DNA from: Bacteroidales bacterium | Lineage (GTDB): Bacteria; Bacteroidota; Bacteroidia; Bacteroidales; VadinHA17 | NCBI GenBank assembly: GCA_024763075.1 | Contig: JANTGF010000023.1 | Span: 1 to 47,827, forward strand | Direction of reading: 5' to 3' | Length of the DNA stretch: 47,827 nucleotides | In this document: piece after piece, positions 15,232-42,118 of the stretch | How the letters are laid out: each line of letters begins with the position of its first letter | Position numbering within the stretch: position 1 is the stretch's first letter | The notes under the pieces: generated by a model | The model's input: the letters and a program-made list of their open reading frames with translations, nothing else | Told to the model about the DNA's origin: nothing | Databases searched by the model: none | Made by a program: the position numbers and the translations under genes

Positions 15232-15255
15232 AATTTTAATTCATTAACAATTTAA

Positions 15256-24807: not shown

Positions 24808-27800
24808 ATGAAAATAAAAATCATATTAGTATTATTTCTAATAATTGCACCTTTTGTTCTGTTTGCCCAGAAGGATACTACCGTAACTATCCGGAAGGAA
24901 AATATTGCACTGAAGGACGTATTAAAAGAAATTCAGAATGGAAGTGATTTCCGTTTTTTTTATAATGCTGAACTACCCGAATTGAATAATACAGTTTCTG
25001 TAAAAGTAAAAAATGAAGGTGTTATGGAAGTCCTTGATTCAATTCTGGACGGGACAGACTTGATTTATAAAGTGTTGGAAAATAATTTTGTGGTTATAGC
25101 CTCAAAGGAAGGATTTGAACAACATGAAGTTTCAGGTCAGGTAGTTTCTTCAGAGAAGGGGGAGTCCATCCCTGGGGCGAATGTTTTTATAAAAGGTTCA
25201 ACTACCGGTACAATAACAGATATTGACGGCAAATTCAATATTATTGTTCCTGGAGGCGAAACTATTCTGGTTTTTTCATTTGTTGGCTACGAACCGGTTG
25301 AAATTCCTGCAGGTGGAGTAACAAATATCAGGGTTCGTCTGGAGGAATCTTCAAAAAAAATACAGGAGGTGGTCGTAACGGCATTGAACATTGCAAGGGA
25401 TAAAAGTTCGTTGGGGTATTCAATTACTCAGGTAGGGAGTGAAGAGATAACCCAGGTGAAACAAAGTAATCCCATCAATTCTTTGGCTGGCAAAGTTGCC
25501 GGGTTACAAATTTCCAGCACTCCTTCAGGTGTGGATGGTTCTTCAAGAGTAGTCTTAAGAGGGATATCCTCCCTGTCAAGTGGAAACCGGCCATTAATTG
25601 TTATTGATGGAATTCCGGTGAGCGGAGGGTCTTATGGTGGTGCAAGCGAATGGGGTGGTACTGATAAAGGAGATGCACTTGCGGATATTAACCCTGACGA
25701 TGTGGAATCTATGAGTGTGTTGAAAGGTGCGGGTGCAGCAGCCGTTTATGGTTCCAGAGGGGCAAATGGTGTTATCCTTATTACTACAAAGAAAGGGAAA
25801 AAGCGGAAGGGTCTCGGAATCTCTTTTAATTCAAGTTATATGGCTGAAAATCCAATGAAACTTCCCGAGCTTCAGAATGAATACGGACAGGGAGCTTATG
25901 GAAGATATCCAACAGAAGTTTATGGAAACATGAGTGATATTGTAGGTGAAGAACCCTGGATTTGGAGCTGGGGCAGTAAAATGGATGGTTCATCAAAAGA
26001 AGATTGGTTGGGGAATGAGGTTGTTTATGAACCTCAGCCTAATCCATTCAAAGAATTTTATCGTACCGGGAATACTTTCATCAACACACTGGCTTTTGAC
26101 GGAGGTAATGAGAGTACTACTTTCAGGGCTTCTATTACCAATCAGAACAGCTCCGGGATGTATCCCACCAATGATATGAACAAACAAACTTTCAACCTGC
26201 ACGGATCATCAAAATTTGGGAATAGCATTGAGATGAATGCAAAGATAACCTACATTCACAGCAAAGTTAATAACCGTCCTTACCTGGCCGAGGATCCTGC
26301 AAATGCCGGATGGTCACTCGGAGCTTTGCCAAGAAATGTAGTCCTGCAAACAGTAAAAGACAATGCGATGGCTCCTGATGGTTCTGAGCAATGGGCATGG
26401 GATCGCACCGTATCCAACCCGTACTGGACCATGCAAAATAAAAAGAATAAGGATGAAAAAAACCGTCTTCAGGGATTAGTATCCGTTAAATTTGACCTTT
26501 CAAAAAGGTTTGACCTTTTGATTCGTTCCGGACTGGATCTTACCAATAGGAATGCAAAAGAGTATGTTGCGGCAGGGAGTTACAATGGCAGTTCATATCG
26601 GGGTTCTATGAATCAGAATTTCAATAGTGGTTATGAATGGAACAATGACTTTTTACTTACTTACAATCAGAAAATAAGCGAAAACATAAATATAAACCTG
26701 AGTTTAGGTGGTAATTATCGTTACAACGAGTGGAAAAGCATCGGTCAGGGTGGAAATGACTGGAAAGTGCCTGAGTTCTACCACATGAGTAATCTCCAGA
26801 ATTATTATACATGGGAAAGTTTTGGACAGAAAGAGGTATTATCCATGTATGGCATGGGAACATTTTCTTTTAAAAATTATCTGTATTTTGATTTTACCTA
26901 CAGGAATGACTGGTCATCAACATTACCTGCTGATAATAATTCTTACAGTTTCTATTCAGGTAACCTCAGCTTCCTGTTTACGGAAGCATTTAATATTGAA
27001 TCCTCTGTTTTATCTAAAGGAAAAGTAAGAGCTTCTGTAGCAAGAGTGGGTAATGATGCCGGACCCTATCAAACAACAAATTACTACAGTGTAGGCCAGT
27101 CGTCATTTCCTTATCCTTTGGGTGGTATGAGCAGCCGGCTGGCATTTCAGAACTTTAAACCTGAAATTACTGATTCATGGGAACTTGGTACGAATTTAAG
27201 TTTTTTTAATAACCGGCTGGAATTTGACTTTACCTATTACGATGGCATCTCTAAAAACCAGATCATGCCTGTGGAGCTGGCACCTTCTTCCGGCTTTGGG
27301 TCAATTATGGTGAATGCAGGCGAAGTACGGAATCATGGTGTTGAAATATTATTTAGCGGTACGGCTGTTTCGCAGGCTGATTTTAACTGGGATTTGTCAC
27401 TTAACTTTTCAAAAAATATCAGTGAAGTTGTTTCATTGTATCAGGGTGTCGACAGACGGGTTTTGCTCTCCGCCGTTACAGCCTTTGCCTTTGTTGAGCT
27501 AAGGCCGGGAGAGCCTTTTGGTTCGATATACGGATATGACTATGCCTACAATGAAAAAGGCCAGAGACTTGTGGATGATTACGGTTATCCTGTAAAAAGT
27601 GAGTATAAAAAACTGGGAGATATTAACCCTGATTTGATTGGAGGCCTATCCAATCGATTTAGTTATAAGAATTTTAATCTGAGCTTCCTAATCGACTGTC
27701 AGTTGGGTGGAGAGTATTATTCGCAAACAAAACTTTATCACGACTTGTTCGGTACTTCTCCAGGATCATTGAGAGGAAGAGATGAGTGGTACTCTACTCA

Positions 27801-28215
27801 TACCGGCCTTCTGTATGGAACCCCCATCCCGGGCGTTGTTCCCAGAGGGTATCTTGAAGATGGAGTAAATGAGAACACCGGTGAACCAAATGATGTGGTG
27901 GTTCAACCCATGTTACGAAATGTTAATGTAATCTATTTTGATAAAATTATTTCAGACTATATAATTGATGCAACCAATATACGTTTGCGGGAGTTGTCAC
28001 TGGGGTATAATTTTCCCCGGCAATGGTTAAATGATTCATTTATAAAACGTGTAAATGTTTCCTTTATAGCAAGAAACCTGTTCTTTTTCTATAATGCCTC
28101 GGGTGATTACGACCCTGAATCGGGCTTTAACTCCGGAAGTATCGGAAATGCATTCACTTTAAATCCAATGCCAAGCTCAAGAAGCTATGGTTTTAGCCTG
28201 AATCTGAATTTTTAA
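24808..28215 (+). CDS. SusC/RagA TonB-dependent receptor with STN domain
   Basis: The 1135-residue outer-membrane protein imports oligosaccharides or similar ligands in complex with SusD. Domains in order: signal peptide (1-21), STN signalling domain (about 25-98), carboxypeptidase-D-like beta domain (about 108-185, starting at VSGQVVSSEKGESIPGANV), plug (about 195-330, with LAGKVAGLQISS, LRGISSL, PLIVIDGIPV and VLKGAGAAAVYGSRGANGV), and a 22-strand barrel to the C-terminus (SLNLNF end, final Phe as expected for barrel insertion). The STN domain shows that it signals to FecR. Length and motifs are complete, with no frameshift. Confidence 0.96.
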   Translation: MKIKIILVLFLIIAPFVLFAQKDTTVTIRKENIALKDVLKEIQNGSDFRFFYNAELPELNNTVSVKVKNEGVMEVLDSILDGTDLIYKVLENNFVVIASKEGFEQHEVSGQVVSSEKGESIPGANVFIKGSTTGTITDIDGKFNIIVPGGETILVFSFVGYEPVEIPAGGVTNIRVRLEESSKKIQEVVVTALNIARDKSSLGYSITQVGSEEITQVKQSNPINSLAGKVAGLQISSTPSGVDGSSRVVLRGISSLSSGNRPLIVIDGIPVSGGSYGGASEWGGTDKGDALADINPDDVESMSVLKGAGAAAVYGSRGANGVILITTKKGKKRKGLGISFNSSYMAENPMKLPELQNEYGQGAYGRYPTEVYGNMSDIVGEEPWIWSWGSKMDGSSKEDWLGNEVVYEPQPNPFKEFYRTGNTFINTLAFDGGNESTTFRASITNQNSSGMYPTNDMNKQTFNLHGSSKFGNSIEMNAKITYIHSKVNNRPYLAEDPANAGWSLGALPRNVVLQTVKDNAMAPDGSEQWAWDRTVSNPYWTMQNKKNKDEKNRLQGLVSVKFDLSKRFDLLIRSGLDLTNRNAKEYVAAGSYNGSSYRGSMNQNFNSGYEWNNDFLLTYNQKISENININLSLGGNYRYNEWKSIGQGGNDWKVPEFYHMSNLQNYYTWESFGQKEVLSMYGMGTFSFKNYLYFDFTYRNDWSSTLPADNNSYSFYSGNLSFLFTEAFNIESSVLSKGKVRASVARVGNDAGPYQTTNYYSVGQSSFPYPLGGMSSRLAFQNFKPEITDSWELGTNLSFFNNRLEFDFTYYDGISKNQIMPVELAPSSGFGSIMVNAGEVRNHGVEILFSGTAVSQADFNWDLSLNFSKNISEVVSLYQGVDRRVLLSAVTAFAFVELRPGEPFGSIYGYDYAYNEKGQRLVDDYGYPVKSEYKKLGDINPDLIGGLSNRFSYKNFNLSFLIDCQLGGEYYSQTKLYHDLFGTSPGSLRGRDEWYSTHTGLLYGTPIPGVVPRGYLEDGVNENTGEPNDVVVQPMLRNVNVIYFDKIISDYIIDATNIRLRELSLGYNFPRQWLNDSFIKRVNVSFIARNLFFFYNASGDYDPESGFNSGSIGNAFTLNPMPSSRSYGFSLNLNF

Positions 28216-28233: not shown

Positions 28234-29790
28234 ATGAAAAGGAAAATAAAGAAAATAAAACCGGTAAAAGCTATTTTGGCTTTTACTATTATAATAGCCG
28301 GCCTTACAAATTGTACAGAACGTTGGGAAGAAATGAACACTGATCCTAACAGGCTGACAAACATCCCGGATGCCTATCTTTTTACAAGTGCAGTAAGAGG
28401 TGCATTTAATGATGGGATGGGAGATTTTCATATGAATTTCGGGGGCCAGTACGGTCATGTTTATATTGCCAGCAACTGGGTACGTGAAGTTGATAAGTAT
28501 AATGGATACGGAACCCAGGATTATCCTGAAATGGTTTTTAGTGGAGTGTATAATTCTTCAATACGTAATGCTGTTGAAGTACTTAAATTAACTTCTGAGG
28601 GGGAAGAATATGAGAATAAATGGCATAATGTTCAGGCTCAGCTGATCGCAATTATTAGTTTCTCTAAACTTACAGATATGTTTGGGGATATTCCATACAG
28701 CCAGGGAGGAATGGCAAAATATGGCATTGAGCAACCAAAGTATGATCGCCAGGAAGATATTTACGCAGATATGGTTGAAAGATTGAAAAACTGCATTGAT
28801 GTTTTGGAAGAACCGGAAGCAGAGAAGCAAATCTATCCTTCTGATATTGACCCAATTTATAAGGGAGACCTTAATAAATGGATTCGTTTTGCCAATTCTT
28901 ACCGTTTGCATCTGGCTATGAGGGCAAGATTTGCAGATCCTGGGAAATATGAACCAATTATTGCTGAGTGTCTTTCATTACCATTAATTGAAAATAATGA
29001 TCAGAACCCAACACTGGAAACCTCAGATAGCAAAAGCGATCTGTATAATCCCTGGTATTGGACCTGGAATGCAAGTCAGGAAGGTGTGTATAATCTTGTT
29101 TGGTCTGAAAAGTTCATTAATACTTTGATAGAGACGAATGATCCGCGTTTATTCTTTTATGCATCCAGGAATGTGGATGGGGAGTATAAAGGAATGCCAA
29201 ATGGTTTAACCGATAAAGCGTTTTCTTCCTTTAATAAGAAAACCGCATCGATACCCTCTGGTGAATTTTTTGCAAAAACTCAACCAATTTATATGATCAC
29301 CGCAGCTCAGATTTGGTTATATAAAGCCGAACTAGCTTTATTTAATATTGGTAGTTCAGGAGGTGATGCAAATTTAATGTACCAAACGGCTATCAGACTG
29401 GCAATGGAACAATGGAATATCAATCCTGATTCAATTGACACCTATATTTCGGTGGAAGAAGAAGCAAGTCTTTACGGTGACCGGGAAAATATGTTCAGAC
29501 AGATCTCTACACAAATGTGGATTGCCAGTGTTCCGAATGCCTTTGAATCATGGTGTACCATTCGCCGTACCGGATATCCGGAGATTCCTCAAAGAACAGA
29601 CCCCTTATTTTCACAGGGAGTTACAAATGGCTATATGCCTACCAGGGTATCTTATCCGGTCACAAAGGAAAGAACAATTAACGGAGAAAATGTGGACGAA
29701 GCAATTGGTCGCATTCCCGGAGGCCAGGACAGAATTGATGCCAGAGTCTGGTGGGATGCCCGTGATATTCATGGAGCCCAGGAACAATAG
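28234..29790 (+). CDS. SusD/RagB-type surface lipoprotein (SusD-like_2)
   Basis: The 518-residue lipoprotein is the lid of the SusCD complex and binds the imported glycan at the cell surface. The lipobox Cys lies near residue 27 (AGLTNCTE), followed by the family start EEMNTDPNRLTNIPDAYLF. Internal features of the SusD-like_2 branch are the SRLTDMFGDIPYS-like segment FSKLTDMFGDIPYSQG near 150 and the C-terminal ESWCTIRRTGYPEIP near 435, before the usual R-x-x-YP region. TPR-like helices make up the core. It is 18 bp after SusC. The N-terminal lysine-rich signal is longer than usual. Confidence 0.94.
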   Translation: MKRKIKKIKPVKAILAFTIIIAGLTNCTERWEEMNTDPNRLTNIPDAYLFTSAVRGAFNDGMGDFHMNFGGQYGHVYIASNWVREVDKYNGYGTQDYPEMVFSGVYNSSIRNAVEVLKLTSEGEEYENKWHNVQAQLIAIISFSKLTDMFGDIPYSQGGMAKYGIEQPKYDRQEDIYADMVERLKNCIDVLEEPEAEKQIYPSDIDPIYKGDLNKWIRFANSYRLHLAMRARFADPGKYEPIIAECLSLPLIENNDQNPTLETSDSKSDLYNPWYWTWNASQEGVYNLVWSEKFINTLIETNDPRLFFYASRNVDGEYKGMPNGLTDKAFSSFNKKTASIPSGEFFAKTQPIYMITAAQIWLYKAELALFNIGSSGGDANLMYQTAIRLAMEQWNINPDSIDTYISVEEEASLYGDRENMFRQISTQMWIASVPNAFESWCTIRRTGYPEIPQRTDPLFSQGVTNGYMPTRVSYPVTKERTINGENVDEAIGRIPGGQDRIDARVWWDARDIHGAQEQ

Positions 29791-29832: not shown

Positions 29833-30792
29833 ATGAAACGCAAAAGATTATTAAAGAATGTTTTAGGATTAGGTTTGGTCCTGTTTTTAGGGGTTTACTT
29901 TACAGCATGTGAAAAAGATAAACCGGCACCAACCCTTGACCTGTTTATTACAATTGACGGGTTTACCGTGGATATCGCAGCAGAAGCAACGAATGTAACC
30001 TCCTGGAGCTGGGATTATGGTGATGGTACGGTTTCTGATTCTGTGGGTAGTCATACGCATACTTACGCAACCGGAGGAAATTTTACAATTAAGTGTACAG
30101 TTACAGGCGAGGGAGGAGAGATAACAAAAACAGAAGCTGTAACAATTGCAACAATAAAAGACCTCCTTACCGGAGGTGCAAGTGCAACAAATGGTAAAAC
30201 ATGGCTTATCTCAAGAACTGCAGGTGGTTATGATGGAGTTGGTTTTGTGAAAGAGGCCCTGGCACCTGATTATTTTCCCGCTGTGAATAATATGCTTGAT
30301 GTACTCGATTTACCTGAAGAATATGACAATGAGTTTACTTTCAAATTTGACGGCAGCTATTCCATTGACAATAAAAATGGAAATGTGCTGGCAGGCTGGG
30401 TTTATAGTGATATGGATGTTGATCCTGGTGACATTATAAAAACGACAGCTTATGGAATCTTTCAGATTGCTTATCCTAACCCAACTGATGCAACATGGTC
30501 TTTACATGAAAATCAGGATCTAACAATCGAATCGGTTTATGATGCAAATGATGATCAGGAGGACGGTGTTCCGGAAACGGTTACTTTTGAAAATGTGGAC
30601 TATATTACTTTTACTGGTGGTGGCTTTATTGGGATGAAAGATTATACATCTACAGCCATTATAAGGGAAATTGCCCCTGATAGAATGGTTATGACAATGT
30701 TCTTTCACTCTTACAAAGGGAGCCCGGGGAATGATGGTGACTTATACCTGAGACCCTCTTTTATTATGACTTTGTCGTTTGATAAAAAATAG
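29833..30792 (+). CDS. PKD-domain lipoprotein, likely surface glycan-binding protein
   Basis: The 319-residue product has a lipoprotein signal (Cys near residue 26, YFTACEKD) and a PKD domain (about 35-110) with the WDYGDGT motif and the TYATGGNF strand. The rest (about 118-319) is beta-rich with a GKTWLISR motif that often follows PKD domains in SusE-like proteins downstream of SusD. It probably binds the substrate on the cell surface and helps SusCD. It is 42 bp after SusD and is the last gene before a terminator. The ligand is unknown. Confidence 0.78.
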   Translation: MKRKRLLKNVLGLGLVLFLGVYFTACEKDKPAPTLDLFITIDGFTVDIAAEATNVTSWSWDYGDGTVSDSVGSHTHTYATGGNFTIKCTVTGEGGEITKTEAVTIATIKDLLTGGASATNGKTWLISRTAGGYDGVGFVKEALAPDYFPAVNNMLDVLDLPEEYDNEFTFKFDGSYSIDNKNGNVLAGWVYSDMDVDPGDIIKTTAYGIFQIAYPNPTDATWSLHENQDLTIESVYDANDDQEDGVPETVTFENVDYITFTGGGFIGMKDYTSTAIIREIAPDRMVMTMFFHSYKGSPGNDGDLYLRPSFIMTLSFDKK

Positions 30793-30926: not shown

Positions 30927-32522
30927 ATGAATATAATGAAAAAATATAGTTATTTATTTATTGTTTTAATAATATCAGTATTGTCAGCTTGCTTTTACAG
31001 TCATCCTGATAAGGAATCCCAGGAAGGAGGTCATTTCATTTCTGTAAAAGACAGGTCATTCATTGACCCGATGGGTAGGGAGGTGATCTTAAGTGGTGTA
31101 AATCTGGTCAATAAATCCCCTGATGGAGATTATTTTTGTGCCCTGACACCAAAAGTTTTTGAAAATCTACGTAATTCCGGGTTTAATGTGGTCCGCTTAG
31201 GGATTATATGGGACGGGCTGGAGCCTGAACCGGGGATTTATGATGAAAAAATGTTTGACTGCCTGGATGAACGGATTCAGTGGGCAAGGGATAACGGTTT
31301 ATATGTGCTGCTGGATATGCATCAGGACCTATACAGCGTTAAGTTTTCTGACGGGGCTCCTGAATGGGCAACTTTAACTGAAGGAAAACCTCATTACACA
31401 GGTCATGTATGGAGCGATTCATATCTGATAAGCCCGGCAGTTCAGACTGCTTTTGATAACTTCTGGAAGAATACTCCTGCTTCTGATGGTGTGGGCATCC
31501 AGGATCATTATGCAAATCTTTGGAGATATATTGCAAAAAGATATGCATATGATACTTTGATTATTGGATATGACCTGATGAATGAACCATTTCCCGGCTC
31601 AGCGGCAAACAACTACATGCCTGCAATGATTGAGGCTTATGCTAAGATTCTTGCTGCCTCAGGCAAAAAAATCCCCGGGCCGGACGAATTGATGCAATCC
31701 TGGAGTGTACCTGAAAACAGAGCAGAGATCCTGTTGACCTTGCAGGATACCAACTTGTATAAGCAGGTAATCTTCTCCACACAAGAGATGAACAGGAAGT
31801 TTGAACAAGATGATTTATCTGCTATGTATCAGAAGGTCACTCAGGCAATCCGCGAAGTTGATACCAACCACATCGTATTTCTTGAGCATAGTTATTTTTC
31901 AAACCCAGGTGTTCCAAGTTCCCTGATTCCGGTGAAAGATAAAAACGGCAAAGTGGATAAAAAGATTGCATATGCTCCACATGGCTATGATCTGGTTGTG
32001 GATACAGAAGCATATACCAATGCCAGCTCTTCACGGGTTAAATTCCTTTTCGATCAGGCGGAAGCTACTTCCAAACGCCTGAATATACCAATGCTGGTAG
32101 GGGAATGGGGTGCATTTGGTGGCAAAAATCCGGGTTTTGCTAATCAGTCAGATGAAATTCTCAGATTATTTGAAAAATACAAATGTTTAAACATGTATTG
32201 GGCTTATTCTGAGGGCATTGAGTCATATCCTTATTTTAAAATGCTGGTAAGATCATACCCCAGAGCAACTCTTGGCACGCTGTTGAGTTATTCCAATCAA
32301 CCCGGGGAGGTATTTTCATGTGTATGGGAAGAGAGTGGGATTGAAAAAGGAAACTCTGTGTTTTTTATTTCCTCAGCCTTTAAAGAAGGAAAAGAAACTG
32401 TAAATATATCATTAGATAAAAAAGAATATGAATTAAAGGCTTTACCGGATTCTGAACATGCTTTACTGATTGTTCCTGTATCCGGTGAACCCGGCGTTCG
32501 TAAATTAAAAATCAATTATTAA
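30927..32522 (+). CDS. GH5 glycosidase of endoglycoceramidase type, lipoprotein
   Basis: I choose ATG 30927 (531 residues); another ATG lies at 30936 and both lead into the same lipoprotein signal (VLSAC). The TIM barrel carries the acid/base Glu220 in LMNEPFPG and the nucleophile Glu393 in VGEWGAFGG. The stretch LLDMHQDLYS followed by FSDGAPEWA near 130-150 is typical of endoglycoceramidase-like GH5 enzymes, which split the bond between a glycan and ceramide or act on other glucosides. A C-terminal beta domain (about 440-531) is also typical. Substrate could be glycosphingolipids, steryl or other hydrophobic glucosides. Family call is firm; the lipid substrate is inferred. Confidence 0.85.
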   Translation: MNIMKKYSYLFIVLIISVLSACFYSHPDKESQEGGHFISVKDRSFIDPMGREVILSGVNLVNKSPDGDYFCALTPKVFENLRNSGFNVVRLGIIWDGLEPEPGIYDEKMFDCLDERIQWARDNGLYVLLDMHQDLYSVKFSDGAPEWATLTEGKPHYTGHVWSDSYLISPAVQTAFDNFWKNTPASDGVGIQDHYANLWRYIAKRYAYDTLIIGYDLMNEPFPGSAANNYMPAMIEAYAKILAASGKKIPGPDELMQSWSVPENRAEILLTLQDTNLYKQVIFSTQEMNRKFEQDDLSAMYQKVTQAIREVDTNHIVFLEHSYFSNPGVPSSLIPVKDKNGKVDKKIAYAPHGYDLVVDTEAYTNASSSRVKFLFDQAEATSKRLNIPMLVGEWGAFGGKNPGFANQSDEILRLFEKYKCLNMYWAYSEGIESYPYFKMLVRSYPRATLGTLLSYSNQPGEVFSCVWEESGIEKGNSVFFISSAFKEGKETVNISLDKKEYELKALPDSEHALLIVPVSGEPGVRKLKINY

Positions 32523-32544: not shown

Positions 32545-32925
32545 ATGAAAAATTTAAAAGTATTATTGTTTGTAAGTGTTTTTATGCTTTCAACTGCTGT
32601 AATGTTTGCAGAGGGGAAAAAAGATGTTAAACCGGTTGGGACCTGGACATTTGTTGCCGAAGATGTACCCTATGAGTACAGTACAGGTGATATCGTTATC
32701 ACAAAGGATGGAAAAGAGCACAAAGGCGAAATTGTTTTCAGTGAATATTATAAGTTAAAAACCAGTGATTTTAAAATTGAAGAAGACAAGATATCTTTCA
32801 AGGCTTATGTTGAAGGAGAAGTTGTTTATTGTAAAGGAACTTTTACAGGAAAAGACAAGATTGAAGGTAAAGTTTCTTTCTCTGAAGGTACCGTTGACTT
32901 TTCAGCCACCAGAAAAAAGAAGTAA
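32545..32925 (+). CDS. Small secreted beta-rich protein
   Basis: The 126-residue protein has a signal peptide (1-22, ending VMFAEG) and a mature part of about 100 residues of alternating beta strands (VGTWTFVAED, GDIVITKDGKEHKGEIVFS), resembling small lipocalin-like barrels. It has no known active-site motif. It is 22 bp after the GH5 gene and shares its transcript, ending at a clear terminator. It might bind the lipid or glycan product of the GH5 enzyme, but that is only a guess from position. Confidence 0.75.
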   Translation: MKNLKVLLFVSVFMLSTAVMFAEGKKDVKPVGTWTFVAEDVPYEYSTGDIVITKDGKEHKGEIVFSEYYKLKTSDFKIEEDKISFKAYVEGEVVYCKGTFTGKDKIEGKVSFSEGTVDFSATRKKK

Positions 32926-32943
32926 GCTTAATTAGTTTTTCAG

Positions 32944-32980
32944 GAAACCGGAATATATTTTCCGGTTTCTTTGTATTTTA
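32944..32980 (+). terminator. Rho-independent terminator
   Basis: A perfect 10-bp stem 32944-32953 with 32960-32969 and a 6-base loop is followed by a T-rich tract. It ends the GH5/small-protein transcript; the aminotransferase start must lie beyond it. Confidence 0.85.
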
Positions 32981-33039: not shown

Positions 33040-34485
33040 ATGACAACTCCTGATAAAAACTACCCGGATGTAAAAATGGTTTATTCAAAAATGGAGAATC
33101 TTCTTTCCCGGCCTGTTTGTCATTTTAATAAAGATACACTGGATCAAATGTTGACACATTTTGACCGGAGTTGTATACAGTCAAGGGAAATGTCTAAAAG
33201 ATCGAAGGAGTCTATTCCGGGCGGTGTTCAGCACAATCTGGCTTTTAATTACCCTTTCCCTCTGGTTTTTAACAAAGCTGAGGGTGCCTGGTTACATGAT
33301 CTGGACGGGAATAAATACATTGACTTTCTGCAGGCAGGTGGCCCCACGGTACTGGGGAGTAATTATTTGCCTGTTAGAGAGAAGGTAGTTGATCTGATCA
33401 ATACCTGTGGTCCGGTTACCGGACTTTTTCATGAATATGAAATGAAAATTGCAGAGCTGATCTGCCGGCTTTTTCCCTCGGTGGATTTATTCCGGATGCT
33501 TGGGAGTGGTACGGAAGCAGTTATGGCAGCCATCAGGGTGGCAAGACTGGCAACAGGAAAGAAAAAGATCATTAAATTAGGAGGGGCCTATCATGGATGG
33601 AGTGACCAGATGGTCTATGGGATGCGCATACCCGGAACAGGTAGGTTTGAAGCACACGGTATACCCGCTTCCTGTTCAAAGCATACCCAGGAGGTTTGGC
33701 CCAACAGCATATCTTCACTGGAGAAAAAGCTGAAATGGAACAGCATCCGGGGAGGAACAGCAGCAGTTATTCTGGAGCCGATTGGACCAGAAAGTGGCAC
33801 ACGTCCCGTTGATTGGGAATACAACCGGCAGGTAAGGGAATTATGTGATAAGTATGGAGCTTTACTCATCTTTGACGAAGTGGTCAGTGCTTTTCGTATT
33901 GGTGTGAGTGGTGCCCAGGGTTATTATGGGGTAAACCCGGATTTGACGGTTTTTGGGAAAGTTGTGGCGGGAGGATACCCCAGTGCAGGAGGCCTTGGAG
34001 GCAGAAAAGATTTGATGGAATATCTGGCTGCCGGATTGCAAAGTGGCAAAAAGCGGGCAATGGTAGGAGGAACCCTGGCCGCAAATCCTCTGAGTTCTGC
34101 AGCAGGTTATTATACCATCCTGGAAATTGAAAAAACACAGGCTTGCGACAAGGCCGCTGAAGCAGGCAACCGGCTTGTGAAAGGGCTGCAATTACTTATT
34201 GATCAGTATAAACTTCCGTTTGTTACGTATAATCAAAAATCGGTTTGTCACCTCGAAACTTCAGGTGTAATGTTTGTGAAAATAAACTACCTGAAAATTC
34301 GTAAAGTTCTCAAAGAGATTAAGCAAAGAAAGCATTTGATGGAAGAAATGGGTGCTCTTCTCATGTCAAAGGGTATTGTTACAGTTGCCGGAAGCAGAAT
34401 GTACACCAGTATGGCAGATACCGATGAAATCATAGATGAGGCATTGAATAGGTTTGAATCCATATTTAAAAGTCTGGAAACCTGA
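33040..34485 (+). CDS. Class III (GSA-aminomutase-like) aminotransferase
   Basis: The 481-residue PLP enzyme resembles glutamate-1-semialdehyde aminomutase and related class III transaminases. Visible features: SIPGGVQHN near 50, the phosphate-binding GSGTEAVMAAIRVAR near 148, GGAYHGWSDQ near 180, ILEPIGPE near 245, FDEVVSAFR (cofactor Asp) near 280, and the Schiff-base Lys307 in VFGKVVAGGYPSAGG. I start at ATG 33040 because the earlier TTG lies inside the terminator tail. It is the first gene of a tight set (GH1, FGGY kinase, aldolase follow with gaps of 20, 28 and 1 bp). An aminotransferase is unusual in a sugar locus; the amino substrate is unknown. Confidence 0.86.
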   Translation: MTTPDKNYPDVKMVYSKMENLLSRPVCHFNKDTLDQMLTHFDRSCIQSREMSKRSKESIPGGVQHNLAFNYPFPLVFNKAEGAWLHDLDGNKYIDFLQAGGPTVLGSNYLPVREKVVDLINTCGPVTGLFHEYEMKIAELICRLFPSVDLFRMLGSGTEAVMAAIRVARLATGKKKIIKLGGAYHGWSDQMVYGMRIPGTGRFEAHGIPASCSKHTQEVWPNSISSLEKKLKWNSIRGGTAAVILEPIGPESGTRPVDWEYNRQVRELCDKYGALLIFDEVVSAFRIGVSGAQGYYGVNPDLTVFGKVVAGGYPSAGGLGGRKDLMEYLAAGLQSGKKRAMVGGTLAANPLSSAAGYYTILEIEKTQACDKAAEAGNRLVKGLQLLIDQYKLPFVTYNQKSVCHLETSGVMFVKINYLKIRKVLKEIKQRKHLMEEMGALLMSKGIVTVAGSRMYTSMADTDEIIDEALNRFESIFKSLET

Positions 34486-34505
34486 ACGAAATAGATTTAT
34501 TGCAG

Positions 34506-35912
34506 ATGAGAAATAAGTTAATAGTTGTATTTATATCAACAATGATGATAGTTTATTTTATCATCGTTTTTTTATATCAGTCCAAATATCCTCAGTTGAA
34601 ATGGGACTGGAATAAGATTGACACGGAAAACCTGAATTTCCCAAAAGATTTCCTCTGGGGAGTGTCCACTGCAGCTCATCAGGTGGAAGGGAATAATACA
34701 AATAATCAGTGGTATGACTGGGAAAATTCCGTTGATGAAAACGGGAAGCCCAGAGTGGAAGGTGGTCAGAAATCCGGACTGGCATGTGATCATTGGAATC
34801 GCTATCCCGAAGACATTCAATTAATGAAACAATTGGGTGTAAAAGCATATCGTTTTTCTGTGGAATGGAGCCGGATTGAACCACTAATGGGCGTTTTTGA
34901 CTCAACAGCGATCAGGCATTACCAGGATGTTTGTGATTCCCTGATTGAAAACGATATAGAACCGGTAGTTACCCTCCATCATTTTACCAATCCCATTTGG
35001 TTTGAAGAAATGGGAGCTTTTGAGAAGAAAGAAAATGTAAAATATTTTGTCGAATTTGTTGAGAGAATATTTCCTGCTTTGCAGAATCGTGTTAATATGT
35101 GGTGCACCATAAATGAACCTGCCGTTTATACCGTGGATGGTTACTTTACAACCATGTCTCCTCCGGGTAAATCGGATCCCGCTTTGGCAGCTGTTGTTCT
35201 CAGGAATCTTCTGGAAGCACATGTTCAGGCATATCATAAAATAAAAAGTTTGCCTGGTGGTGAAAAGGCAAAAATTGGTATCGTAAAAAACATGACACAA
35301 TTTGACCCTTATGATAAATGGAACCCTGCTGACTGGTTTGTGGCAACTACGGTTTATAAGATATTTAATGAATCCATTCTGGGATTCCTGAGAACCGGAG
35401 AGTATAAATTCAGGCTGCCATTTGAAGTAAATATGATTGATCACAATCCCAGGGCAGTAAATACCCTGGATTTTATAGGCCTTAATTATTATTCCCATTA
35501 TTATTACAGATTCACATTTGATCAGGAAAAGATATTTGAGCCTCATTACAAAACCGGGGATATCATGACAGATATGGATTATGCATTTTATCCTGAAGGC
35601 ATTTATCGTGCAGTGCAAGCCTTGTCGAAGTTTGATGTGCCAATATATGTCACAGAGAATGGAATTGCCGATTCGAAAGATGATCGCCGGGCTATATTCA
35701 TAAGCAGATATTTATATGCAATCTCAAAAGCAATTAAGGACGGATATGATGTAAAAGGATATTTTTACTGGTCGCTTCTTGATAATTTTGAGTGGTCCTT
35801 TGGGTATGATAAACAATTTGGTTTATATAGTGTTGACCCACAAACACAGGAAAGAAAACTTAAAAAGGGTGCAAAACAATATCAGAAAATTGTAAAAGAG
35901 TTTTCCAGGTAG
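34506..35912 (+). CDS. GH1 beta-glycosidase
   Basis: The product (468 residues from ATG 34506; a TTG two codons earlier is less likely) is a retaining beta-glucosidase/galactosidase of GH1. Acid/base Glu204 is in CTINEPA and nucleophile Glu384 in VTENGIAD. The barrel begins with FPKDFLWGVSTAAHQVEG, the normal GH1 start, near residue 42. Before it is an unusual hydrophobic segment (about 4-25), which may act as a signal anchor, so the enzyme may face the periplasm. It should cleave oligosaccharides released by GH5. Confidence 0.92.
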   Translation: MRNKLIVVFISTMMIVYFIIVFLYQSKYPQLKWDWNKIDTENLNFPKDFLWGVSTAAHQVEGNNTNNQWYDWENSVDENGKPRVEGGQKSGLACDHWNRYPEDIQLMKQLGVKAYRFSVEWSRIEPLMGVFDSTAIRHYQDVCDSLIENDIEPVVTLHHFTNPIWFEEMGAFEKKENVKYFVEFVERIFPALQNRVNMWCTINEPAVYTVDGYFTTMSPPGKSDPALAAVVLRNLLEAHVQAYHKIKSLPGGEKAKIGIVKNMTQFDPYDKWNPADWFVATTVYKIFNESILGFLRTGEYKFRLPFEVNMIDHNPRAVNTLDFIGLNYYSHYYYRFTFDQEKIFEPHYKTGDIMTDMDYAFYPEGIYRAVQALSKFDVPIYVTENGIADSKDDRRAIFISRYLYAISKAIKDGYDVKGYFYWSLLDNFEWSFGYDKQFGLYSVDPQTQERKLKKGAKQYQKIVKEFSR

Positions 35913-35940: not shown

Positions 35941-37491
35941 ATGGAAATGGATTTGAAAAAGAAATATTTGGTTGCCCATGATGTGGGTACCGGTAGCAAC
36001 AAGGCTGCCTTGATCAGTGCAGATGGACAAATTCTGGCATCAGCAGAGGCTTCATACCCTTTTCAATATCCTCAGCCCGGCTGGGTGGAGCAACTTCCTG
36101 GAGATTACTGGAAAGCAATCGTAGAAACCACAAAAGCATTGATTCACAGTACAGGAACAGATGTTTCTAACATTATCGGTTTGTCCTTTTCAACCCAAGC
36201 CATGGGAATTATCCCGGTGGATAAGACCGGGGAGGTGTTGCATCCGAATATTACCTGGGTGGATGGAAGGGCAGAGGATGAAGCCCGCTGGCTGATGAGG
36301 AGATTTATGGGGAAAGAGGTTTTTAAATCCATTGTGGGAATTACTCTTACAGGAAAAGATGTTATTCCTAAACTGATTTGGCTGAAAAAAAACAGACCCA
36401 GGGTTTACAGGGAAACAGACACATTTCTTGATGTTAACGGTTATTTGAAATTCATGGCCACTGGAAAATGCGTGGCTGAATGGTCGGGAGCATGTTCTTA
36501 TGCCTTTAACCTGAAAAGAAAGGACTGGGAGCGGATCTTTTTCAAAATTGCAGGAATTGATCTCGAAAAGCTTCCTTCATTGGTGAAATCCACGGATAAG
36601 GTGGGAGGATTAACAGCTGAAGCTGCACAACAACTTGGTTTGAAGCAGGGAACTCTGGTATTTGGTGGTTGTGATGATACGCAAAGTGCAGCAGTGGGTA
36701 CCGGATCAACCGGGGAGGGTGAAGCTCATATTTACCTGGGAACTTCGGCCTGGGTGGGTGTAACCACAAGTAAAGTTTATAAGTTTAGGCATGGGGCAGT
36801 TTGTCTTCAAAGTGCTGATCCTGAAAAAAATCTGGTGGTCGGAATTACTGAATCGGCAGGAAACAATCTGGAGTGGTTAATGGACAACTTCTATAAAAAG
36901 GAGAAAGAGAAATTCGGAGATGAATATATTTACAAGCAGATTGAAAAAGAAGCAAGTCAGATTCCTCCCGGATCGGATTATTTGATAATTACGCCATGGT
37001 TGCTGGGCGAAAGGTGTCCGGTAAGTACTACCACCACCAGAGGAACGGTTTTTAACCTGGGACTGGAGCACACCCGCGGACATTTTGTACGTGCACTGGG
37101 GGAGGGAATTGCTTATAATTTGCGATGGATTATTGAAAATTTCGAAAAGGATTTTGGTTTTAAGATATCCTCATTGAGAATTACCGGCGGTGGTTCACAA
37201 AATAATCAGTGGATGCAAAGCTTTGCGGATATCATTAGACATCCGGTTTATACTACCAGTCAACCTAAAATGGCAGGGGCCATTGGAGCTTCCGTATGTG
37301 CTTTTGTTGGTGCAGGAATTTTCCAGGGCTTTGATGAGGTGAAAAAATTTGTTCAGACAGAGAAAACTTTTATTCCGGATAAGGAAAATGAACAAATTTA
37401 TAACGAGTTATTCGCCTCATATAAGCAAATTTATAAAAAGTTAAAAGGGGAGTACAAAAGAATAAATTTGAAACGCTTTAGAACAAAATAG
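35941..37491 (+). CDS. FGGY family carbohydrate kinase
   Basis: The 516-residue cytoplasmic kinase phosphorylates a sugar, ketose or polyol with ATP. It shows the two actin-like ATPase domains: N-terminal HDVGTGSNKAALI and GLSFSTQAMGI, WVDGRAEDEA; then GGCDDTQSAAVGTG with the catalytic Asp, and the FGGY signature region LRITGGGSQNNQWMQSFADI near 400. It is nearest in wording to xylulokinase-type members but the residues seen do not settle the substrate. The next gene starts one base after its stop, and it encodes a class II aldolase, so a ketose-1-phosphate (fuculose- or rhamnulose-like) is the likely product. Confidence 0.88.
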   Translation: MEMDLKKKYLVAHDVGTGSNKAALISADGQILASAEASYPFQYPQPGWVEQLPGDYWKAIVETTKALIHSTGTDVSNIIGLSFSTQAMGIIPVDKTGEVLHPNITWVDGRAEDEARWLMRRFMGKEVFKSIVGITLTGKDVIPKLIWLKKNRPRVYRETDTFLDVNGYLKFMATGKCVAEWSGACSYAFNLKRKDWERIFFKIAGIDLEKLPSLVKSTDKVGGLTAEAAQQLGLKQGTLVFGGCDDTQSAAVGTGSTGEGEAHIYLGTSAWVGVTTSKVYKFRHGAVCLQSADPEKNLVVGITESAGNNLEWLMDNFYKKEKEKFGDEYIYKQIEKEASQIPPGSDYLIITPWLLGERCPVSTTTTRGTVFNLGLEHTRGHFVRALGEGIAYNLRWIIENFEKDFGFKISSLRITGGGSQNNQWMQSFADIIRHPVYTTSQPKMAGAIGASVCAFVGAGIFQGFDEVKKFVQTEKTFIPDKENEQIYNELFASYKQIYKKLKGEYKRINLKRFRTK

Positions 37492-37492
37492 A

Positions 37493-38152
37493 ATGACTGA
37501 AAAAGAAGCCCGCAATCTGATTTGTGAATCAGGAAGGAGACTTGTGGAAAAGGGACTGGTTTCCAGAACCTGGGGGAACATTAGCATCCGTATGGATGAA
37601 AATATTATGCTGATCACTCCGAGTGGAAGAACTTACGAAGATTTAAAGCCGGAAGAGGTAGTACAGGTTTACATTGAAAGCCTGAAATATGAGGGAAGTA
37701 TAAAACCATCATCTGAATTTGTTTTGCATGCTGAAGTTTATAAAAAGCGTAAGAATGTAAATGCGGTCATTCATACCCATCAAATGAATGCCTCTACGCT
37801 TGCTGCTGCACACAGGGAAGTACCCCCCATTTTGGATGATATGGCTCAGATTATTGGACCTTCAGTCAGGGTGGCGGATTATGCTTTACCCGGCACAAAA
37901 AAAATAGTCAGAAAAACAGTGAAAGCGCTGCAGGGCAGGAATGCAGCTTTAATGGCAAACCATGGCGCGGTTTGTGTCGGCAAGGATATGGAAGAGGCTT
38001 TTGTGGTTTGTGAAGTCCTGGAAAAAGCCTGTAAGGCATATATTGAGGCAGAGTTTCTGGGAGGTGCAAAGTCCATCAATAAGTTTGAAGCCCATTTAAT
38101 GCATCAATATTATTTAAGGAAGTATTCAAAAAGAGAAAGGAAGAATAAATAA
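37493..38152 (+). CDS. Class II aldolase, FucA-like (L-fuculose-1-phosphate aldolase family)
   Basis: The 219-residue zinc enzyme splits a ketose-1-phosphate into DHAP and an aldehyde. The zinc/catalytic residues align with those of FucA: Glu75 in SSEFVLH, His94 and His96 in VIHTHQ, and His157 in MANHGAV, each two residues after the E. coli FucA positions 73, 92, 94 and 155. Ser/Gly phosphate-binding residues (GNISIR, TPSGR) are also present. It could alternatively be a ribulose-phosphate epimerase of the same fold. Coupling to the FGGY gene (1-bp gap) supports a kinase-aldolase pathway. Confidence 0.86.
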   Translation: MTEKEARNLICESGRRLVEKGLVSRTWGNISIRMDENIMLITPSGRTYEDLKPEEVVQVYIESLKYEGSIKPSSEFVLHAEVYKKRKNVNAVIHTHQMNASTLAAAHREVPPILDDMAQIIGPSVRVADYALPGTKKIVRKTVKALQGRNAALMANHGAVCVGKDMEEAFVVCEVLEKACKAYIEAEFLGGAKSINKFEAHLMHQYYLRKYSKRERKNK

Positions 38153-38187: not shown

Positions 38188-40182
38188 ATGTTATTAAAGA
38201 ATCGAAATTTTACCTTTTTACTTTTATTGTTTGGGTTGGTGTATTCAGGTTATTCCCAAACGCAAAACAAATTCCTATGGAACTTTGATGAAAACGGTGG
38301 TATTTACTGGGCAGTAAGGGAATCACAGAACCACACTGACCACATAGAGATGAGTGGTTTCCATGTTTCGGTGATCCTGACCTATGGAGTGGAAAACGGG
38401 GGACTGGTGCTAAAGTATCATCTGGTTTTTCCAATGCTCCGGACCATCCCAAATAATACACATGCCAGCCTGGCTTATGATTTTAATAGCAGTGATTTAC
38501 AGGATGTTGTGATTAATTCATCTCCTGTGAAGGAGAATCCTGAAAAGTTCAGCCTGAATGGTTTGCTTTCTGTTAATTCCAAAGCAAATGAGGTCAATGT
38601 CCTGCATGAGATTTATCCTTCTGTGGATAAAGCTGCGGTGATTGAAAAAAGGATATATAAAAATATTTCCGGCAACAACATATCTGTCCACCTACCTGAG
38701 ATAAATAAGATTCATAAAACTCCTGAAAAAAAAGGTGTATATGGTATTTATGTAATAACAGCCAGGTCAGATAAGAATGGAGATTTTACTTTAAAGCCTG
38801 ATGAGACCATTGAGTATTCGATCATTTATTCTGCAAGAAAAGCCTGTGAACCTGCTTTTTACGTTTCTGCTGATTATGAACTTCTGAAAAGAAAAATGTT
38901 TGTTGATGGCATTCATCGTGACCTGGTTTTTGAAAGTCCGAACGATACACTGAACAGGGTATTTAACTTTGCGAAAATCCGTGCAACGGAAAGTATTTAT
39001 GATACCAAAGGAGGTTTAATGCACGGACCTGGAGGTGGAAGTTATTATGCAGCCATCTGGGCAAATGATCAGGCAGAATATGCGAATCCTTTTTTCCCCT
39101 TTCTCGGGAATCTTGCCGGAAATGAATCGGCCATTAATTCCTTTCTCCATTTTGCCAGGTATATGAATCCGGAGTATAAGAGGATACCGAGTTCTATCAT
39201 TGCCGAGGGAGTTGATTTTTGGAATGGTGCCGGAGACCGCGGTGACATGGCTATGATTGCCTATGGTGCCGGAAGATTTGCCCTGGCGTATGGGTACAGA
39301 CAAACTGCTAAAAACTTATGGCCTTTGGTTGAGTGGTCACTTGAATATTGCCGAAGGAAAATTAATAAGGATGGGGTTGTAACAAGCGACAGTGATGAGC
39401 TTGAAGGCCGTTTCCCTGCAGGAAAAGCAAATCTGAATACTTCCTCCCTTTATTATGATGCACTCAATACTGCTGTTTTACTTGGAAAGGAACTGAAAAA
39501 AGATGAGTCTCTGTTGCAGGCATATAAAAAGCAAGCAACTGAGATGAAGCAGGCTATTGAAAATTATTTCGGTGCAAAGATGGATGGTTTTAATACCTAT
39601 CGTTATTACAGGAAGAATACCACTTTGAGGGCCTGGATATGTACACCACTTACAGTAGGTATATATGAAAGGGCCGAAGGGACGATTGATGCTTTATTTT
39701 CACCTCGCTTATGGACAAAAGATGGGTTGGCCACGGAAGAGGGCGATGTCACTTTCTGGGACAGGGCTACACTGTACGGTTTACGTGGTGCTTTTGCTGC
39801 CGGAGAAACGGAAAGGACAATGAAGTTTTTCAATTATTATTCTGCCAGGCGATTACTCGGCGAACATGTTCCTTACCCGGTTGAGGCTTACCCCGAAGGT
39901 GGACAGCAACATTTATCAGCGGAAAGCGCTCTGTATTGCCGGGTGGTGACAGAAGGGATTTTTGGTATCCGGCCGGCCGGTTTATCCACTTTCACGCTAA
40001 CTCCTCAGCTATTCTCAGAATGGGATGAGATGGCCTTGCGGCATATTCGTGCATTTAAGCGGGATTTTGATATCGAAGTGAAACGATCTGGAAAAAACCT
40101 TCAGGTTAAAGTCCTTCAAAATGGCAAAGTCTTTTTCTCTGAAAAAATCAAGGAGGGGGATTCTGTAAAGATAAAGCTTTAA
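38188..40182 (+). CDS. Secreted six-hairpin glycosidase superfamily protein
   Basis: The 664-residue protein has a signal peptide (1-23, SGYSQ), an N-terminal beta domain (about 25-240) and an (alpha/alpha)6 barrel (about 250-600), as in GH63/GH78/GH15-like enzymes. Barrel features are GPGGGSYYAAIWANDQAEY near 282 with a candidate acid Asp, AEGVDFWNGAGDRGD near 345 and YPVEAYPEGGQQHLS near 565. A short beta domain closes the protein (IEVKRSGKNLQVKVL). I cannot assign a family number or substrate; an exo-acting alpha-glycosidase is likely. It follows the aldolase by 35 bp and ends before a terminator-like hairpin. Confidence 0.72.
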   Translation: MLLKNRNFTFLLLLFGLVYSGYSQTQNKFLWNFDENGGIYWAVRESQNHTDHIEMSGFHVSVILTYGVENGGLVLKYHLVFPMLRTIPNNTHASLAYDFNSSDLQDVVINSSPVKENPEKFSLNGLLSVNSKANEVNVLHEIYPSVDKAAVIEKRIYKNISGNNISVHLPEINKIHKTPEKKGVYGIYVITARSDKNGDFTLKPDETIEYSIIYSARKACEPAFYVSADYELLKRKMFVDGIHRDLVFESPNDTLNRVFNFAKIRATESIYDTKGGLMHGPGGGSYYAAIWANDQAEYANPFFPFLGNLAGNESAINSFLHFARYMNPEYKRIPSSIIAEGVDFWNGAGDRGDMAMIAYGAGRFALAYGYRQTAKNLWPLVEWSLEYCRRKINKDGVVTSDSDELEGRFPAGKANLNTSSLYYDALNTAVLLGKELKKDESLLQAYKKQATEMKQAIENYFGAKMDGFNTYRYYRKNTTLRAWICTPLTVGIYERAEGTIDALFSPRLWTKDGLATEEGDVTFWDRATLYGLRGAFAAGETERTMKFFNYYSARRLLGEHVPYPVEAYPEGGQQHLSAESALYCRVVTEGIFGIRPAGLSTFTLTPQLFSEWDEMALRHIRAFKRDFDIEVKRSGKNLQVKVLQNGKVFFSEKIKEGDSVKIKL

Positions 40183-40849: not shown

Positions 40850-42118
40850 TTGAAAGAAAATTTTAAAATCTATCCCTATCGCTGGGTTGTACTGGCAGCC
40901 TTTATGTTCATAACATTTGTTATTGAAATCCAGTGGCTGGCACATGCTGCTGTTGCCCGTCCTGCAGGAATATTTTATGAAGGGCAATTTGCTGCCGGTT
41001 CCTTCTTTAATATTGATTTTCTGGCCATGGTGTATATGCTGGTTTACCTGATCATGAGCATTCCGGCTTCCTATGTGATTGATACTTATGGAATAAAACC
41101 CGGACTTGGAATAGGGGCAGTACTTTTGGGGATATCGGGTCTGGTAAAAGGGATTTTTGCCACTGATTTTCAAATTGTCCTGGTTGCCCAGATAGGTCTG
41201 GCAGTTGCCCAGCCCTTTATTCTAAACGCTGTTACGGCAGTTTCTGTCAGGTGGTTTCCTTTGAAAGAAAGAGGCCTGGCGGCAGGCTTGTCGGTACTGG
41301 CTCAATACCTGGGGATCATTGTCGCCATGCTTGTTACACCCCTGATGATAGGCACAGAACCGGATCTGGCAGGTTATGGCCAGGGGTTCGAGAGAATGTT
41401 GATGATATATGGGGTTCTTTCTCTGGTTGCAGCACTTGTGTCGTTGATTTTTATAAAAGAATATCCTCCGAGTGCTCCATCAGAAGAGGAGTATGTCAGG
41501 CATAACTTTTTTGAGGGAATCCGCTATATTTTCCGTCAACGGGATATGCTTATAACCCTTGCATTGTTCACGGTTGGACTGGGAATATTTAATGCTATTA
41601 GTTCCATGACCGATGCCATTGCGGCCAATATTGGTGTAAAAGATTCGGATGGGCTAATTGGTGGACTGATGCTTATTGGCGGGGTGATTGGCGCATTGAT
41701 AATCCCCGTTTTGTCAGACAAACAACAAAAGCGGAAAAAATTCCTTGTAATGTGTATGATCGGAGCGGTTCCGGGTATCCTGGGTCTAACTTTTGCCGGA
41801 TTTATTTCTGAAGATCCTCAAACGGGTTATATGATCGCTTTGGTTTCATCTTTTATACTTGGATTCTTTATAATGAGTGCCGGTCCCATTGGTTTTCAGT
41901 ATGCAGCTGAAGTAAGTGCTCCTGCTCCCGAATCTACCTCGCAGGGGCTGCTTTTACTGGTTGGCCAGGTGAGTGGATTAGTATTTGTGGCCGGAATGAG
42001 TATAGACCGGAATGCTTATCTGAATCAGTTTATGATCCTTTTTAGTGTTTTGTCTTTTCTAATTATTGTTGGTGTTCTACTTTTGAAAGAGTCTCCAATG
42101 ATGAAAACCGATAATTGA
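40850..42118 (+). CDS. MFS transporter
   Basis: The 422-residue inner-membrane protein has 12 predicted transmembrane helices in two halves, with the major-facilitator loop between helices 2 and 3 (ASYVIDTYGIKPGLGIG) and its neighbour WFPLKERGLAAG in helix 4-5. The second half starts near ITLALFTVGLGIF. The start appears to be TTG at 40850, because no in-frame ATG occurs before the first helix; an upstream ATG (40820) closes after five codons. Position at the end of the locus suggests import of the released sugar, but the FLVCR-like wording leaves other substrates open. Confidence 0.85.
   Translation: MKENFKIYPYRWVVLAAFMFITFVIEIQWLAHAAVARPAGIFYEGQFAAGSFFNIDFLAMVYMLVYLIMSIPASYVIDTYGIKPGLGIGAVLLGISGLVKGIFATDFQIVLVAQIGLAVAQPFILNAVTAVSVRWFPLKERGLAAGLSVLAQYLGIIVAMLVTPLMIGTEPDLAGYGQGFERMLMIYGVLSLVAALVSLIFIKEYPPSAPSEEEYVRHNFFEGIRYIFRQRDMLITLALFTVGLGIFNAISSMTDAIAANIGVKDSDGLIGGLMLIGGVIGALIIPVLSDKQQKRKKFLVMCMIGAVPGILGLTFAGFISEDPQTGYMIALVSSFILGFFIMSAGPIGFQYAAEVSAPAPESTSQGLLLLVGQVSGLVFVAGMSIDRNAYLNQFMILFSVLSFLIIVGVLLLKESPMMKTDN

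Follow-up and report, generated by a model that had tools for sequence, protein, structure and literature searches.

The stretch of Bacteroidales DNA analysed here (the window, 47,827 nucleotides) carries a locus that probably dismantles glycosphingolipids and consumes their lipid backbone through an aminotransferase-kinase-aldolase pathway for phytosphingosine, a reading to which a probability of about 0.58 is attached. The chemistry proposed for it, at slightly better than even odds, is a microbial phytosphingosine route that has not been described, in which transamination at C2 and phosphorylation at C1 are followed by an aldol cleavage to dihydroxyacetone phosphate (DHAP) and a C15 aldehyde. 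Among the papers listed in a search of the full-text literature, which covered few subscription journals, none had a title or opening lines of an abstract on a phytosphingosine transaminase-kinase-aldolase route. The locus consists of the following features.

20790..21359, plus strand: ECF-type sigma factor (PF04542/PF08281), start of the locus
21408-23582, plus strand: Asp-box (BNR-repeat) protein, flanked by the genes for the ECF sigma factor and FecR
23701..24795, plus strand: FecR-type anti-sigma factor (PF04773, PF16344)
24808..28215, plus strand: SusC-like TonB-dependent transporter (PF13715, PF07715)
28234..29790, plus strand: SusD-like lipoprotein (PF12771, 252 bits)
29833..30792, plus strand: PKD-domain lipoprotein (PF18911)
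30936..32522, plus strand: GH5 endoglycoceramidase-like protein (PF00150, 128 bits)
32545..32925, plus strand: small protein with a signal-peptide-like start, read from the sequence
32942..32971, plus strand: terminator-like hairpin of 12 pairs with a T-rich tail, between the GH5 part and the aminotransferase
33040..34485, plus strand: class III aminotransferase (AT; PF00202), proposed phytosphingosine (sphingoid base) 2-transaminase
34500..35912, plus strand: GH1 beta-glucosidase-like protein (PF00232, 315 bits), start TTG 34500
35941..37491, plus strand: FGGY kinase (PF00370/PF02782), proposed to phosphorylate O1 of the 2-keto lipid
37493..38152, plus strand: class II aldolase of the fuculose-1-phosphate type (PF00596, 182 bits)
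38188..40182, plus strand: 664-aa protein, family unassigned, 35 bp after the aldolase
40850..42118, plus strand: FLVCR-like MFS transporter (FLVCR1/2 matches in the PDB)

The window holds 34 frames of at least 150 aa, of which 32 were scanned against Pfam; the other two (34902-35618 on the minus strand and 46446-47009 on the plus strand) both overlap longer genes. The Pfam search gave no match for the small protein, and the 664-aa protein has none in Pfam, NCBIfam or the PDB; relatives of the latter occur in 22 of 196 genomes, its own included, and near AT in none of the 80 loci described below. The BNR-repeat protein could be an additional glycosidase of the locus. Adjacent GH16 and GH43-like genes lie outside the AT locus on the minus strand (14434-16326). 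The sequence-only reading of this DNA had placed a glutamate-1-semialdehyde (GSA) aminomutase-like enzyme with an intact PLP lysine (Lys307) directly before the GH1, FGGY kinase and aldolase genes at short distances, which is borne out by the PF00202 match and by intergenic gaps of 14, 28 and 1 bp along the order AT, GH1, kinase and aldolase. It had taken these genes for a sugar catabolic operon with an odd enzyme in it; more likely they form a lipid-backbone pathway that uses sugar-type enzymes. The AT frame opens at ATG 33040, has its stop at 34485 and encodes 481 aa. A longer alternative from TTG 32971 begins inside the terminator-like hairpin, which makes ATG 33040, the start chosen earlier, the likelier one. 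Terminator-like sites are not rare in the region (13 against 9.5 expected in shuffles), and the hairpin at 32942-32971 has the longest stem among those listed; it suggests that the SusC/SusD-GH5 part and the AT part are two transcription units.

AT is a class III PLP-dependent aminotransferase by its PF00202 score (174.5 bits against a cut-off of 30.5) and by K307. The closest named models and structures are those of HemL, the glutamate-1-semialdehyde aminomutase of heme synthesis, and the best NCBIfam fits are aminomutase models matched under their cut-offs. That AT is a HemL lying by chance in a sugar operon is nevertheless extremely improbable and was rejected. On the HemL model TIGR00713 AT reaches 261.6 bits against a cut-off of 527.3, and its copies in the sampled AT genomes score about 254-298 bits. 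The column of Lys307 holds lysine in 82/82 AT, 12/12 HemL and 15/15 HemL-like proteins of the alignment. The Arg, Trp, Asn and Glu of HemL (R26, W61, N211 and E400 in L112), which are present in 12/12 HemL proteins and which we take to form the substrate pocket of GSA aminomutase with the Arg binding the substrate carboxylate, are replaced by a gap, G, E and a gap in all 82 AT members. Judged from the alignment, this loss would fit a substrate that does not have the carboxylate of glutamate. In a FastTree tree of 82 AT, 12 HemL, 15 HemL-like and 2 other class III proteins, the AT proteins form a long-stemmed clade of their own (support 0.8) and the HemL proteins a second one (support 1.0). The earlier reading had suggested just such a phylogeny and had held that a grouping with HemL would undo its proposal; AT falls outside the HemL clade and this objection fails. 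Its further suggestion of looking for a separate hemL was answered in part, as a HemL over the cut-off is present in 25 of 50 sampled AT genomes, while in the genome of the window (96 % complete, 197 contigs) a search with AT as query found no second HemL-like gene and ALAD was not found either. That query recovered two other relatives, an ornithine aminotransferase that passes its cut-off with 684 bits and an ArgD-like protein that stays under the cut-offs. One deltaproteobacterial MAG (G517, the genome of L038) has seven matches to the HemL model including its AT, one of them over the HemL cut-off.

A structure predicted from 28 aligned sequences (pLDDT 78.3, pTM 0.85), used in place of a single-sequence fold with a pLDDT of 32.6, has the class III fold and cannot decide between substrates. 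Its best structural match is the GSA aminomutase 2hoz (Z 38.6, rmsd 2.5, 408 residues aligned), and residues 1-30 are barely covered by the structural alignments listed. AT thus resembles HemL in its fold and PLP lysine and differs from it in the HemL-specific residues, in its clade and in its gene context.

Relatives of AT were found with a threshold of E 1e-3 in at least 556 confirmed stretches of a named-genome scan, not every one of which need be an orthologue, and the best 80 of these, with 60-76 % identity to AT, were read as loci. By record title they span about eleven phyla and include 20 Bacteroidota, 18 Bacillota (16 Clostridia or unspecified and 2 Chengkuizengella), 17 Chloroflexota, 8 Hydrogenedentota, 5 Desulfo- or deltaproteobacterial records, 4 archaeal MAGs, 3 Spirochaetes, 2 Verrucomicrobia and 1 each of Marinimicrobia, Caldisericota and Phycisphaerales; since the majority are MAGs, unexpected assignments, Thorarchaeota for instance, call for caution. 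The distribution of AT is patchy, with occurrences in 3 of 99 relatives and 1 of 395 genomes of the phylum sample. Many of the 80 loci are cut by contig ends. Of the 43 loci that extend 5 kb or more to either side of AT, 37 have an aldolase no further than 5 kb from AT, 30 a kinase, 30 both and 15 an FLVCR-like transporter, and the idea of the sequence-only reading that a keto compound is fed to the kinase and aldolase fits this conservation. Over all 80 loci the corresponding numbers are 56, 46, 42 and 21, and either a kinase or an aldolase is within 5 kb in 60, whereas five of the 43 well-covered loci (L024, L034, L062, L077 and L090) have neither within 10 kb. Linkage to kinase and aldolase among relatives at this level of identity indicates that the gene neighbourhood of AT is more than chance. 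Four loci (L063, L070, L075 and L081) are included in these neighbour counts and missing from the clustering and operon listings, where a longer shadow frame displaced AT.

The conserved core consists of AT, kinase and aldolase, sometimes joined by the FLVCR-like transporter, and GH1 stands outside it. The four-gene set with GH1 that had been expected to be conserved therefore holds up only for the other three genes: a GH1 between AT and kinase was seen only in the window and within its genus (G001, L013), and just one of the 80 loci (L054) has a GH1 relative no more than 10 kb from AT, at another place in the gene order. The kinases of the AT loci fall into two groups of identity to that of the window, 28-35 % and 52-66 %, and so do the aldolases with 34-42 % and 49-76 %, which makes a functional tie likelier than descent from one operon. 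TetR-like genes are found within 5 kb of AT in 40 of the 80 loci by BLAST to six representatives, five of which match TetR_N and the sixth of which (L090) clusters with L062, which matches. In clostridial loci (L062, L077, L090 and others), many of them from rumen or gut by title, AT directly follows a TetR regulator and neither kinase nor aldolase was found nearby; perhaps these loci serve the detoxification of sphingoid bases.

The kinase scores under the cut-offs of all 12 NCBIfam models it matched, the best being XylB with 326 of 380 bits. The nearest solved relatives of the aldolase are FucA proteins. In the aligned aldolases the Glu of the SSE motif is present in 55 of 56, HxH in 55 of 56 and the His of NHG in 54 of 56, in a count over 57 loci that leaves out two frames of at least 260 aa (L045, L092); L073 deviates at each of these positions and L041 at the last His. 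We take these residues to be the catalytic Glu and the three metal-binding His of the aldolase, which thus has the catalytic residues of the FucA type. With 152 of the 264 bits of PRK06833 it remains under the cut-off for L-fuculose-phosphate aldolase and is accordingly classed as FucA type rather than as an equivalog.

From the gene content, family assignments, conservation, linkage and co-occurrence observed in the AT loci we infer the following pathway, with each of its substrates and reaction steps, and whatever part the FLVCR-like transporter may have in it. SusC/SusD and the PKD lipoprotein would capture a glycosphingolipid, the GH5 endoglycoceramidase-like enzyme and GH1 would take off the sugar, and a ceramidase, which is absent from the locus, would liberate the long-chain base. 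AT would then transfer the 2-amino group of phytosphingosine, a 2-amino-1,3,4-triol, to a keto acid and leave a 1,3,4-trihydroxy-2-ketone, which amounts to a ketose carrying an alkyl tail. The FGGY kinase would phosphorylate O1 of this 2-ketone and the FucA-type aldolase would split the C3-C4 bond into dihydroxyacetone phosphate (C1-C3), which could enter glycolysis, and pentadecanal (C4-C18), a C15 fatty aldehyde that would be oxidised by a class 3 aldehyde dehydrogenase (ALDH3). Phytosphingosine has the (2S,3S,4R) configuration, and bookkeeping of the CIP order from this assignment gives (3R,4R) for its 2-ketone. The products of FucA are (3R,4R) D-erythro, with imperfect selectivity for the non-natural aldehydes used by the authors (PMC11274987). 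The configuration of the 2-ketone fits that of FucA and supports the pathway. Sphinganine and sphingosine do not have the 4-hydroxyl and would not be cleavable in this way, so that the pathway points to phytosphingosine.

A different substrate of AT is conceivable, namely a water-soluble amino sugar, an aminopolyol or a small amino alcohol of which the keto form is phosphorylated and cleaved, with the FLVCR-like transporter perhaps importing the compound and the sphingolipid-type enzymes being present through a glycosylated compound or by coincidence. All five PDB matches of the transporter at a threshold of E 0.01 are FLVCR1/2 (best 112.5 bits, E 2e-31), which are named in the PDB as heme or choline/ethanolamine transporters, so another substrate is possible. 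The usual substrates of FGGY kinases and FucA-type aldolases are small sugars, which counts in the same direction, as does the fact that most AT loci do not have a sphingolipid-type gene nearby (GH5 in 3 of 80, ALDH3 in 3 of 80). Yet such a substrate would leave unexplained why GH5, ALDH3 and S1P-lyase genes recur as neighbours and why GH5 co-occurs with AT, and it appears unlikely, if by no means negligible. Bacteria whose AT loci have no sphingolipid-type gene nearby, or whose genomes gave no GH5, may import free bases or rely on different glycosidases; alternatively the substrate may be a smaller amino alcohol, with which the resemblance of the transporter to FLVCR would also agree. The sequence-only reading had offered an amino sugar, an amino alcohol or a sphingoid-like compound; the neighbourhood favours a sphingoid base, and the other two are less supported.

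Evidence for the phytosphingosine pathway comes from the glycosidase part of the locus. The GH5 frame is open from TTG 30900, and ATG 30936 gives a signal-peptide-like start with an LSAC lipobox by reading; the searches used a 523-aa query (30951-32522). The nearest solved relatives are endoglycoceramidases, among them endoglycoceramidase II, and both catalytic glutamates align: Glu212 with the Glu of NEP and Glu385 with a Glu that is Ser in one endoglycoceramidase II chain. On the endoglycoceramidase I model NF051847 the protein reaches 138.7 bits under a cut-off of 700 and is for this reason named endoglycoceramidase-like only. The GH1 protein has a hydrophobic N-terminal stretch and, by reading, TINEP and TENG motifs, and it scores 322 bits on TIGR03356, under the cut-off of that model. 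A GH5 of the type in the window lies beside AT in 3 of 80 loci, L020 (Maribellus), L033 and L052 (a Verrucomicrobia MAG). In the genome of L017 it is located on the AT contig, about 11 kb from AT, in the order SusC, SusD, PKD, GH5, alpha-L-fucosidase-type gene, GH30, transporter and AT-kinase-aldolase-ALDH3. In the genome of L033 one contig end carries sigma factor-FecR-SusC-SusD-PKD-GH5 and a second contig GH5-AT-kinase-aldolase-GH30. The GH30 genes near AT in L017 and L033 were considered as glucocerebrosidase-like and dropped: they match PF14587, which is not known to be the glucocerebrosidase model, no NCBIfam name was obtained for that of L033, and they are not counted as sphingolipid evidence. 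The upstream genes recur as well, since SusC near AT in L015, L016 and L020 is 46-49 % identical to that of the window and SusD 38-42 %, a sigma factor is followed by FecR in L140 and L015 as in the window, relatives of the PKD lipoprotein lie near AT in L016 and L020, and PKD proteins precede GH5 in L139 and L140.

Genome counts for GH5, HemL and S1P lyase cover 50 of the 80 AT loci. At E 1e-40 GH5 is present in 15 of the 50 AT genomes and 35 gave none; by title the positive genomes are 7 of 20 Bacteroidota, 7 of 8 Hydrogenedentota and 1 of 2 Verrucomicrobia. The Bacteroidota sample has GH5 in 1 of 395 genomes, which is the genome of the window itself, and in 0 of the 394 others. The difference between 7/20 AT genomes and 0/394 others in Bacteroidota gives a Fisher value of 2e-10, which is a guide only because at most three candidates per control genome were scored against all candidates in AT genomes, the two sets were drawn from separate collections and related genomes do not count independently.

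An ALDH3 is located beside AT in L016, L017 and L053 (3 of 80 loci) and also in L012, where human fatty aldehyde dehydrogenase (4qgk) is among its best matches; the best curated model of the ALDH3 proteins is the benzaldehyde dehydrogenase MdlD, with 400 and 423 of 550 bits. In the Phycisphaerales locus L053 (5322-12102) the operon order is kinase, S1P lyase, ALDH3, AT and aldolase. In the PDB this lyase finds S1P lyases (3mad) at E 1e-188 and with 631 bits, against 99 bits for MfnA, and its best curated model is the tyrosine decarboxylase MfnA with 230 of 299 bits. Two routes for sphingoid bases may share this one operon. The same operon lends some weight to the idea that AT deaminates or detoxifies sphingoid bases generally, or uses the phosphoethanolamine released by S1P lyase, with the kinase and aldolase working on the sugar that is set free. 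Phosphoethanolamine is a substrate of some class III enzymes, and several clostridial loci have AT after TetR and neither kinase nor aldolase found nearby. This is nevertheless improbable, clearly more so than a small water-soluble substrate, as AT remains linked to both identity groups of kinases and to both of aldolases and the genome of the window has no clear S1P lyase (best match 34.8 bits). Relatives of S1P lyase are found in 21 of 50 AT genomes, with five matches above 500 bits, a count that has no matched control, and only the linkage in L053 is therefore used as evidence. A neighbour of AT in L030 is a distant relative (38 %) that also fits tyrosine decarboxylase models and was not counted.

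Neither a ceramidase nor an ALDH3 is found among the 32 of 34 window frames scanned. The same genome has an ALDH3 (436 bits) on a contig other than that of the window and four weak ceramidase-like matches of 51-62 bits, also on other contigs; the latter are partial PF04734 matches with no control in relatives (0 of 14 well-known genomes) and are thus not used as co-occurrence evidence. On one contig (C93, L150; 4445-12864) a ceramidase-like protein with a long C-terminal part is encoded about 3 kb from an ALDH3 with two genes in between, and by reading the ALDH3 overlaps a GMC-type oxidoreductase gene. In view of this overlap and distance the pair was set aside as weak support for the pathway.

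The pathway proposed for phytosphingosine has counterparts in known systems. The S1P lyase pathway likewise splits a sphingoid base so that a fatty aldehyde and a phosphorylated head group result, but it yields phosphoethanolamine and needs no such transaminase or aldolase. The aminopentol aminotransferase FumI of Sphingopyxis sp. MTA144 transfers the C2 amine of a sphingoid-like chain to pyruvate and leaves a 2-ketone, and in the part of the source available its substrate as named does not have the 1-hydroxyl of phytosphingosine and no follow-up by kinase and aldolase is seen, unlike in the AT loci (PMC2933618). FumI shares the class III fold with AT (6hbv, Z 34.9, rmsd 2.6, 396 residues aligned) at an identity of 24 % over the structural alignment, and as a match to the AT model it ranks below structures of GSA aminomutase and D-phenylglycine aminotransferase. 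The FucA-like aldolase DrdA cleaves 5-deoxyribulose 1-phosphate to DHAP and acetaldehyde, and both the DrdK-DrdI-DrdA disposal of 5-deoxyribose and L-fucose catabolism use a kinase and a FucA-type aldolase to obtain DHAP and an aldehyde (PMC6079011). The substrate of DrdA has the same head as the proposed lipid and a one-carbon tail. These pathways begin with sugars and pass through an isomerase, whereas the AT pathway would rely on an aminotransferase for its ketone and yield a fatty aldehyde. A eukaryotic phytosphingosine route to odd-numbered fatty acids has reportedly been described, going by the title of work by Kondo from 2014.

If the pathway is real, it would provide a transaminase and an aldolase that work on long-chain bases, and the backbone of phytosphingosine-containing sphingolipids would be recycled without S1P lyase. 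It would also explain a source of odd-chain aldehydes, from which odd-chain fatty acids would be made. A large family of HemL-like enzymes, which in sequence models stands next to the HemL of heme synthesis, would belong to lipid degradation, and the combination of AT, kinase and aldolase would serve as a gene marker for consumers of sphingoid bases in environmental and gut genomes. Across about eleven phyla, as judged from titles, the backbone of a membrane lipid would be converted into a long-tailed ketose that is broken by sugar enzymes and feeds glycolysis.
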